DNA of 23,532 bases from a virus: positions 1 to 23,532 of the IMG/VR virus record IMGVR_UViG_3300024985_000010; one strand, given 5' to 3'. Position 1 is the stretch's first letter; every line of letters starts with the position of its first letter. The notes under the pieces were generated by a model, which saw only the letters and a program-made list of their open reading frames with translations, searched no databases and was not told the origin of the DNA. Positions 9,377 to 10,963 of the stretch are shown piece by piece. The position numbers were made by a program, and so were the translations under genes.

Positions 9377-9913
9377 ATGGAAAGTGTTTTAACTCGTTTA
9401 CAAGAATCTATCGGGACCGGTGAATTGATAAATATTATTTACCATGGTGGGCATGAACCCGGAAAATCAAGGCAGATTTTACCGATAAAAATAACGGCCG
9501 ATAAAGTCCGTGCAAAGTGTTTAACAACTGGACAAATTAAAACGTTTTCAATTGCAAAAATTGAGTTGTCTAAAAATGATGACGTTACTTATACCGGGCA
9601 ACAGCAAGCAACTGAGCCATTAACTGTCGATGAATTTAATGACTTAATAAGCAACTGCTTATCAGACCTATCGGCAATGGGTTGGCATGTACTATTGAAT
9701 GAACAAGGCATAGGGTTATTTGAAACACTTAAAAGCGGCAAACCAAAGAAAAACCCAAAGGTGTATTTTATATTTTTAATAAATGACACTGATCAAGCAG
9801 ACAACCCGTTATTCAAGCCCTATAGAGTGCCCGGTAAATCGTTTAAGTTTTTTGATAAGGCGATAGAAGAGTTCATGGCACAAGCCAAGTACTTCGCACC
9901 AAACAAAGTTTGA
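9377..9913 (+). CDS. WYL-like domain protein, possible moron
   Basis: This 178-residue product starts at ATG 9377 after CTTGAGGAGGCTGC. Residues about 15-65 (LINIIYHGGHEPGKSRQILP, then KVRAKCLTTGQIKTFSIAKI) resemble the core of WYL/SH3-like ligand-sensing domains: Y-x-G, then P-x-R-x-I-x-P, then V-x-A-x-C and the R/KTF-x-x-x-K/R-I ending. The second half is helical and unrecognised. WYL domains often bind nucleic acid or nucleotides in defence and regulatory proteins. No HTH is attached. Placed in an accessory slot before the antirepressor RNA region, it could be lysogenic cargo. The domain call is moderate. Confidence 0.5.
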   Translation: MESVLTRLQESIGTGELINIIYHGGHEPGKSRQILPIKITADKVRAKCLTTGQIKTFSIAKIELSKNDDVTYTGQQQATEPLTVDEFNDLISNCLSDLSAMGWHVLLNEQGIGLFETLKSGKPKKNPKVYFIFLINDTDQADNPLFKPYRVPGKSFKFFDKAIEEFMAQAKYFAPNKV

Positions 9914-9938
9914 CAAGCTGTTTTTCAGGGTCTAAGCT
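9910..9938 (+). promoter_or_regulatory. Candidate promoter for the structured RNA
   Basis: A perfect TTGACA at 9910-9915 overlaps the stop codon of the preceding gene. The best -10 at 17-base spacing is TAAGCT at 9933-9938, only a three-of-six match. If used, transcripts would begin near 9945 and end at the terminator at 9997-10017, giving an RNA of about 70 bases. Confidence 0.45.
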
Positions 9939-10017
9939 AATCCCGTGCTGACATATTCAGCGCCGGGGTTAGCGTCCTGAATTACAAGCGGCACCGCCGC
10001 ATTCATGCGGTTTTTTT
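9925..10017 (+). ncRNA. Structured RNA, C4-antisense-like candidate
   Basis: The DNA folds as nested stems: TCAGG 9925-9929 with CCTGA 9976-9980, GCTAATCCCG 9936-9945 with CGGGGTTAGC 9964-9973 (one G-U), and GCTGA 9947-9951 with TCAGC 9957-9961. A terminator hairpin follows. With a start near 9945, an alternative fold pairs GCCG with CGGC and leaves GGGGTTAGCG partly in a loop. This segment can pair over ten positions (two G-U) with CGCTAACTTC at 10093-10102 in the leader of the downstream antirepressor. In phages P1 and P7 the C4 antisense RNA silences the antirepressor gene in just this layout. Identity as C4 (Rfam RF01695) is a hypothesis from structure and context. Confidence 0.5.
9997..10017 (+). 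terminator. Rho-independent terminator of the structured RNA
   Basis: CCGCAT/ATGCGG (or ACCGC/GCGGT in an alternative register) is followed by seven T residues. It closes the C4-like element and separates it from the antirepressor leader, so reading through it would be needed if both share a promoter. Confidence 0.8.
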
Positions 10018-10041
10018 GTGCCAAGCGTTCAGCTTCCTATT

Positions 10042-10120
10042 ATGGTGGGCTGGGCGGAGCAGCCGCAAGGCTGGCCGGTGCTTGTACCGGTACGCTAACT
10101 TCGTTCAGTCCGCCACCCAA
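10042..10120 (+). ncRNA. Folded leader of the antirepressor gene, with an 18-codon ORF
   Basis: The leader shows a GNRA-capped hairpin CAGCC-GCAA-GGCTG, a second hairpin CCGGT-GCTTGT-ACCGG, and a closing stem GGCGGA with TCCGCC, which together form a multi-branch fold. An 18-codon frame, MVGWAEQPQGWPVLVPVR, starts at 10042 without a clear ribosome site and stops at 10096-10098. Its stop lies inside the segment CGCTAACTTC that can pair with the upstream RNA. In P1 the small icd frame before ant plays a coupling role; whether this frame is translated is unknown. Confidence 0.45.
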
Positions 10121-10169
10121 TGCATAGCGTCTTTGGGTAGTGGTTTATAACCTGTTAGGAGATACAAGC

Positions 10170-10730
10170 ATGAACAACTTAAAAACCCTCGCCAATCCTT
10201 TCCAATTTGAAACACTCGATGTGCGCACCGCTGTCGATGACAATGAAAACGTTTGGTTCTGCGCTAAAGATGTATGTGCTGTTTTAGACATTACATGGGC
10301 TGGACCAACACTAGAAAACATGCCTGAAGAGTGGAAAGGGATGTTAAAACTCCACACCCCTGGCGGCGAACAAAACGCCAATTTCATCAACGAATCCGGT
10401 CTTTATTCGCTGATCTTTCGTTCCAACAAACCTAAAGCCAAAGAATTTGCCAATTGGGTATTGGGTGAAGTTCTGCCCCAAATCCGCAAGCATGGCTTTT
10501 TTGGCAGTTTGCCCACTAAAGACTATATCGCCGTGGTTAAGCAAATCGACATTCTTACCGATCGCTTAACCGATAGCAAAAACGCCTTTACCCACCAGCT
10601 GCTGGTTAACCCGCTGCGTAACCTATGCAACATGGCCGGTCACCCGATGCCTGACATTGCGCTAATCAGTAAACAGATTGATCAAATAGACTTATTTGAT
10701 AATGACGTTAAACAATTGGGCGGTGTGTGA
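10170..10730 (+). CDS. Bro-N domain antirepressor
   Basis: This 186-residue protein starts at ATG 10170, with TTAGGAG about nine bases upstream. Residues about 10-115 form a Bro-N domain: FQFETLDVRTAVDDNENVWF, CAKDVCAVLDI, then NFINESGLYSLIFRSNKPKA and FANWVLGEVLPQIRKHG are hallmark blocks. The C-terminal 70 residues are a shorter unknown domain (DYIAVVKQIDILTDRL). Such proteins in phages antagonise the immunity repressor and trigger lytic growth. The preceding structured RNAs would hold it silent in the lysogen. Its stop overlaps the start of the next gene (TGATG). Confidence 0.9.
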   Translation: MNNLKTLANPFQFETLDVRTAVDDNENVWFCAKDVCAVLDITWAGPTLENMPEEWKGMLKLHTPGGEQNANFINESGLYSLIFRSNKPKAKEFANWVLGEVLPQIRKHGFFGSLPTKDYIAVVKQIDILTDRLTDSKNAFTHQLLVNPLRNLCNMAGHPMPDIALISKQIDQIDLFDNDVKQLGGV

Positions 10731-10963
10731 TGAGCACTTTTCAGAAGATGCAAGCCCAAGTGCTTGACCACCTTGACGACCTTAATAACGAAGTCAATGC
10801 CTTGCATTGTTTAACCGGTCTGTTAATGGGCCAAGAGCCTGGCAATAATGCCGTTAATTTGAATGAGCTGTGTTGCCTACTCGATCCTATTATCGAGCGC
10901 CAAAAAACCATTGTTGATGAGGTGCGCGGCATGTTTAAAGAGGTCGGCTTTACCGCTAAATAA
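10730..10963 (+). CDS. Small helical partner of the antirepressor gene
   Basis: This 77-residue product starts at ATG 10730, overlapping the antirepressor stop as TGATG. It appears fully helical (FQKMQAQVLDHLDDLNNEVN, later CCLLDPIIERQKTIVDEVRG) and could be a coiled-coil. No family is recognised. Coupled translation suggests it works with, or is produced alongside, the antirepressor. A terminator hairpin follows nine bases after the stop. Confidence 0.6.
   Translation: MSTFQKMQAQVLDHLDDLNNEVNALHCLTGLLMGQEPGNNAVNLNELCCLLDPIIERQKTIVDEVRGMFKEVGFTAK

Follow-up and report, generated by a model that had tools for sequence, protein, structure and literature searches.

A probable C4-type antisense RNA immunity switch upstream of a Bro-N antirepressor gene in an uncultured P2-like phage

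Genes and RNA elements at the locus

The window, that is, the whole stretch of DNA analysed here, is a 23,532-base virus record (IMGVR_UViG_3300024985_000010) of an uncultured P2-like phage. Its head and tail genes (GPO scaffold, P2 capsid, small terminase and GpR) are P2-type, in agreement with the P2/HP1 backbone assigned in an earlier reading of this DNA (hereafter, the original prediction). The same reading had recognized a Bro-N antirepressor gene, which we confirmed: the product of ant matched the Pfam Bro-N family (6.8e-23) with 81.5 bits, well above the cut-off of 25.6, as well as the PHROG family anti-repressor Ant (1e-38). Used as a probe, the Ant protein retrieved one further copy in viral contigs, from essentially the same phage and identical over the region, so that it offered no variation to use, and no match in genomes. 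A 78-aa ORF at positions 10727-10963, overlapping the end of ant, had no Pfam or PHROG match.

The RNA elements preceding ant are compiled in Table 1. On their upstream side, an ORF assigned to phrog_8498 (9377-9913; function unknown) ends within the promoter region, its stop codon (9911-9913) being overlapped by the TTGACA box. This box and the other elements named in the original prediction are present at the positions given there or within one base of them. The best -10 element at 17-bp spacing, TAAGCT, fits the consensus at three of six positions, which explains why a consensus promoter scan called no promoter at 9910-9938. Taking the start of the isrK model as a guide, we place the predicted transcription start near 9945, where the isrK match begins.

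The element that follows resembles two Rfam families below their thresholds: the isrK match (RF01394) scored 39.5 bits against a cut-off of 50 (E 4.5e-7), so that the element is isrK-like only, and the c4-a1b1 match at 9932-9983 (RF03163) likewise stayed short of membership, with 29.1 bits against 46.7 (E 2.3e-5). The three nested stems previously ascribed to this element are only roughly right, as the predicted fold does not agree in every detail and, with a z-score of -1.89, is less exceptional than the C4 fold described below; the terminator at its end was correctly located. A possible antiterminator hairpin overlaps b1 with its 5' arm, while its 3' arm doubles as the 5' arm of the terminator.

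Table 1. Positions of the promoter, RNA elements, pairing sites and antirepressor gene in the window
Feature	Positions	Strand	Evidence or remark
Probable promoter	9910-9938	+	TTGACA 9910-9915, 17-bp spacer, weak -10 TAAGCT 9933-9938
IsrK-like short RNA (a1b1 target element plus intrinsic terminator, ~73 nt)	9945-10017	+	Sub-threshold isrK and c4-a1b1 matches
Target a1 GGGGTTAGCGT, partner of C4 a'	9965-9975	+	8-bp Watson-Crick core
Target b1 TACAAGCG, partner of C4 loop b'	9983-9990	+	7 Watson-Crick pairs plus one G-U
Possible antiterminator hairpin GCGGC-ACC-GCCGC	9988-10000	+	Shuffle p = 0.006; suggestive only
Intrinsic terminator	9996-10017	+	Stem 9996-10011, T-run from 10012
C4 antisense RNA, predicted mature form (~74 nt)	10044-10117	+	Ends predicted from the P1 c4 annotation
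Specificity loop b' TGCTTGTA, C4 hairpin 2	10079-10086	+	RF01695 structure alignment; complements b1 and b2
Specificity segment a' ACGCTAACTTC, junction and start of 3' stem	10092-10102	+	ACGCTAA predicted unpaired in C4 fold
Target a2 TAGCGT	10125-10130	+	Pairs with a' over 6 bp; stronger in relatives
Shine-Dalgarno AGGAG of ant	10157-10161	+	Sequence
Target b2 TACAAGCA	10163-10170	+	Exact 8-nt complement of C4 loop
Antirepressor gene ant (186 aa, Bro-N domain)	10170-10730	+	Pfam Bro-N and PHROG anti-repressor Ant

The C4 RNA, its targets and their concerted change

C4 RNAs are processed by RNase P at a GG to about 77 nt and repress antirepressor synthesis in trans. The Rfam C4 model (RF01695) covered positions 10038-10120 with 70.6 bits, above its cut-off of 45 (E 3.7e-12 for the whole window). 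For this region, the predicted fold has two hairpins enclosed by a stem of 17 pairs, which includes the GGCGGA/TCCGCC stem noted before, and its stability (-45.9 kcal/mol; z-score -4.66) was equalled by 0 of 200 shuffles. A GG at the predicted 5' end (10044-10045) corresponds to that at the P1 RNase P site, a feature conserved in sequence only. Across 30 sequences, 16 of the 26 pairs of the C4 scaffold showed compensatory changes.

The original prediction had taken the upstream element for the C4-like antisense RNA and the segment now matched by RF01695 for its leader target. Given the C4 match on the latter and the sub-threshold c4-a1b1 and isrK matches on the former, the two roles had been exchanged, and 9945-10017 represents the a1b1 target with its terminator. 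C4-type control of the antirepressor had thus been rightly recognized, together with one correct pairing, but with antisense and target interchanged.

All four P1-type sites were found in the window, in the order a1-b1-C4-a2-b2 that is also seen in P1, such that two C4 segments have partners both up- and downstream (a1 8 bp, b1 7 bp, b2 8 bp, a2 6 bp). One of these segments is the hairpin-2 loop UGCUUGUA (b'), which is complementary to UACAAGC at 9983 in b1 and to b2 downstream. The b2 sequence UACAAGCA lies in the interval separating AGGAG from the start codon and takes in the A of the ATG, thus overlapping the start signals of ant; complements of at least 7 bp at b1 and at least 8 bp at b2 occurred jointly in Markov shuffles at a frequency of 5e-5. 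The other segment, a', finds a better partner in a1 than in a2, and the wider a1-a' region forms a duplex of -21.0 kcal/mol. With only 6 bp at a2, contact with the start site rests mostly on b2. The ten-position pairing of GGGGTTAGCG (9965-9974) with CGCTAACTTC (10093-10102), two positions being G-U, is exactly as originally described and corresponds to the a'-a1 pairing of P1, while both b sites had gone unnoticed.

From that single pairing, the original prediction had derived silencing of ant by the upstream element (9925-10017), acting as an antisense RNA on the leader (10040-10120). The pairing of a1 with a' does exist, the locus likely gives rise to a short terminated RNA, and in Gifsy-1 the equivalent short RNA, IsrK, indeed acts on this region in trans (PMC4825925). 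However, the pairing is located upstream and leaves the ant start site uncovered, Rfam places C4 in the leader, and the Gifsy-1 short RNA activates its antirepressor 139-fold rather than silencing it (PMC4825925, Table 1B), which renders silencing by the upstream element very improbable. We identify the module instead as a C4-type antisense immunity switch 5' of a Bro-N antirepressor gene, a new locus of a known family, and consider it highly likely that ant is under C4-type control through b'-b2 pairing, a judgement that leaves aside the termination and titration steps discussed below.

The closest relative among the matches listed, L262 (Ant 76% identical over 173 residues, capsid 69% identical), carries a C4 stem, terminator and flanks nearly as in the window. 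Its a' and b' differ, and a1, a2, b1 and b2 have changed to match; P1 and P7 differ from each other by the same concerted change of sites. Of the outcomes named as refuting the original prediction, two were examined and neither was borne out: an Rfam match exists, and covariation is seen both within C4 and between C4 and its targets. These coordinated changes on one scaffold also speak against the module being a decayed remnant without function in this phage. Shortening of a2 to 6 bp and the weak -10 element would fit decay, but the C4 scaffold, a1, b1, b2, terminator, Shine-Dalgarno sequence and Bro-N domain of Ant are all intact, and we give this idea hardly any weight.

A C4 sequence pattern scan of viral and bacterial collections yielded at least 238 loci, a sample rather than the full set, with the pattern itself favoring C4 sequences of one form. 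We analysed the 220 loci among the matches listed that had full flanks, comprising 171 distinct b' loops; related loci are not independent, and the mismatched-pair control was built from the same sequences. Over these 220 listed loci, the longest Watson-Crick run of b' averaged 6.94 upstream and 7.63 downstream, compared to 4.64 in mismatched pairs, and partners of at least 6 bp were present on both sides in 162 loci (74%, versus 2.7% of mismatched pairs). Where b2 reached at least 7 bp (169 listed loci), a start codon lay within 22 nt in 168 cases (72 at random positions) and a Shine-Dalgarno-like sequence was near in 149 (50 at random). For a', mean runs among the loci listed were 6.95 upstream and 6.67 downstream, compared to 5.33 and 4.57 in the controls. 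The a1 site preceded b1 by 12-18 nt in 131 of 135 listed loci, and a2 followed C4 at a nearly fixed distance in 186 of 187, within a search limited to 45 nt. The window shows the modal spacings: its a1 core begins 15 nt before b1, the mode of the 135 loci, its a2 lies at the modal distance past C4 for the 187 loci, and its b1 and b2 are positioned as in other loci. As C4 loops and targets co-change over the 220 listed loci, it may be possible to read immunity specificity from sequence.

Many of the listed C4 loci, in genome contigs (L122-L240, mostly Pseudomonas) as well as viral ones, precede short ORFs that are not recognizable as antirepressors, for example in a 40-locus cluster with a DUF6124 representative and a 39-locus cluster with ORFs of ~55 aa. 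At these loci b1 and b2 pairing is kept and the terminator is usually missing. C4-type control thus seems to extend beyond antirepressors. Some records among the matches listed carry two C4 copies (L265 with L268 in G002; L266 with L269 in G007; L036; L135); in L036, the two copies have different loops and each lies 5' of a Bro-N/Rha-cluster gene.

Proposed mechanism and alternatives

We propose that one promoter (about 9910-9938) drives a1-b1, the terminator, C4, a2-b2 and ant. Many transcripts would probably stop at the terminator, giving rise to a short IsrK-like RNA, and transcripts reading through would be cut, probably by RNase P, to release C4 (about 10044-10117). Acting in trans, C4 would bind b2 via b' and the weak a2 via a', covering the start-codon region beside the Shine-Dalgarno sequence, so that ant would remain untranslated and the phage repressor that Ant presumably targets would stay active. 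The b'-b2 block of ant translation is likely and is the best supported step, based on position, conservation and the analogy to P1. In addition, C4 could pair strongly with a1-b1 of the nascent leader, which may reduce read-through; conversely, C4 may be bound and titrated by the short a1b1 RNA, a possible way to switch ant on. C4-promoted upstream termination and C4 titration are plausible.

We tentatively suggest, with rather more doubt than confidence, that C4 and IsrK make up a single switch, widespread among phages, whereby C4 would block antirepressor translation and promote termination of its own leader while the terminated RNA would titrate C4. If so, a prophage would leave lysogeny upon a shift in the balance between two RNAs that share one promoter, and the loops, of which the 220 listed loci contain 171 types, would represent an immunity code that has diversified. 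Constitutive orf45 (C4) RNA worsened IsrK-dependent growth arrest in the Gifsy-1 system (PMC4825925), which does not fit a simple titration of C4.

The terminator points to a further possibility. Phage P4 CI RNA and plasmid antisense RNAs act by transcription attenuation, and C4 might likewise act mainly by binding a1-b1, thus blocking the antiterminator (9988-10000) and favoring the terminator stem (9996-10011), with the block at the ant start being secondary. Consistent with attenuation, a terminator or terminator-like hairpin is present at this place in 26 of the 33 listed Bro-N/Rha antirepressor loci, versus 6.1 expected from the control (deduplicated Fisher p = 1.4e-6 for antirepressor versus other C4 loci among the matches listed). 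A competing hairpin overlaps b1 in the window (p = 0.006), L262 (p = 0.01) and P1 (p = 0.02; combined p = 0.004 for 37 loci among the matches listed). Furthermore, a1 beats a2 as a partner in the window, and the Gifsy-1 short RNA raised the read-through transcript 8-fold (PMC4825925). On the other hand, we did not find the antiterminator hairpin in N15, phiV10 or Gifsy-1, and among the loci listed the start-site target b2 is conserved no less than b1. Attenuation is plausible; as the main mode of control, we deem it unlikely. Two generalizations were rejected: outside the antirepressor cluster, a terminator was found in 33 of 187 listed loci, compared to 26.5 in shuffled sequences, and the antiterminator hairpin occurs in only about half of the terminator-bearing loci among the matches listed.

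The Gifsy-1 locus, published as isrK, orf45 and anrP with IsrK as a dual-function sRNA/mRNA, has been interpreted in terms of a cis structure and translational coupling, and a comparison was drawn with P4 CI/seqA (PMC4825925). Transferred to the window, this would mean that translation of ant requires that of a small ORF starting at the ATGG of C4 (10042), whose ribosome site the short RNA would make accessible in cis. Such coupling is reported for Gifsy-1, where translation of anrP is partly dependent on that of orf45 (PMC4825925), and the overall layout of the two loci is the same. Yet in the window this ORF ends within C4 after only 18 codons, leaving ~70 nt to ant, and ant is preceded by a Shine-Dalgarno sequence of its own. 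Moreover, 52% of the 220 listed loci keep the ATGG frame free of stops as far as b2, versus 56% for the other two frames; hence, it shows no conservation as coding sequence. Coupling is thus most unlikely here. We accordingly discarded orf45-type coding both for the window, where the frame is not open to the ant start, and, on the frame statistics of the 220 listed loci, as a general C4 feature.

Comparison with known C4 and IsrK systems

In itself, the locus is an ordinary family member, and the comparison with other systems is more useful. Unlike the module in the window, the phage P4 system controls replication genes and not an antirepressor. As described in PMC4825925, P4 CI RNA with seqA/seqC is alike in being a processed antisense RNA that pairs up- and downstream of itself. 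According to the part of PMC5320573 drawn on here, Acinetobacter baumannii Group 1 sRNAs share the C4 fold and are processed, at GGW, from longer transcripts; unlike for the window, that part of the source makes no link to an antirepressor leader.

The phiV10 and N15 leaders contain the same series of upstream element, terminator, C4 and antirepressor, but with other specificity loops. In phiV10, the antirepressor is also of the Bro-N type and the isrK match is above the cut-off (75.9 bits), whereas in N15 additional genes separate C4 from ant. N15 gene 32 (NC_001901 28082-28372), annotated as "transcriptional repressor", overlaps the C4 RNA (28301-28388), as does Gifsy-1 orf45, and part of its reading frame may be owed to the C4 RNA.

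In the P1 record, the annotated order is a1, b1, c4, a2 and b2, with b2 just 5' of icd; by sequence, the C4 junction CTGTCAA represents a' and the hairpin-2 loop CACTAAC represents b'. P1 and P7 agree with the window in C4 fold and site order; in all of them a' is placed in the junction, b' sits within the hairpin-2 loop, b2 is found at the ribosome site and an antirepressor lies downstream. Both P1 and P7 also have a terminator-like hairpin between b1 and C4, with a longer loop. They differ in that ant follows directly in the window, with no icd between, and in that the window has a weak a2 and P2-type head and tail genes.

The Gifsy-1 record matched isrK (79.3 bits), c4-a1b1 (48.1 bits) and C4 (69.0 bits), all over the cut-offs, in the order isrK, C4, antirepressor. 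It resembles the window in its isrK element with terminator, its C4, its antirepressor and the same a and b sites, with b2 (+222-228) adjoining the anrP Shine-Dalgarno sequence; unlike Gifsy-1, the window lacks a long ORF through C4, and its isrK score is below the cut-off. Judged from these matches, Gifsy-1 isrK is an a1b1 element and "orf45"/STnc1160, an ~80-nt RNA processed from the read-through transcript downstream of isrK (PMC4825925), is a C4. We found no mention of C4 antisense RNA or phage P1 in the text of PMC4825925, and no link between C4 antisense RNA and Gifsy in the literature searched, which is no proof that the link is unpublished.

This identification bears on the published Gifsy-1 mutants. 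Counting from the isrK model start, the mutated positions that we checked carry the published letters (C18, G28, G31, A107, G114, AUG 119-121, C159, C162, G173 and C175), and G28-C162 and G31-C159 are pairs of Gifsy-1 a1 (26-31) with a' (159-164), a location not noted in the IsrK paper (PMC4825925). The compensatory double mutants G28A/C162U and G31A/C159U restored the native conformation, with basal translation below that of the orf45 single mutants (PMC4825925). As these positions fall exactly on a1-a', the double mutants constitute evidence for a1-a' pairing, and we infer that this pairing belongs to C4. A simple reading is thereby offered for a puzzling set of mutants, linking Salmonella IsrK to the C4 immunity system; this link and the co-changing loops across the 220 listed loci are worth following.
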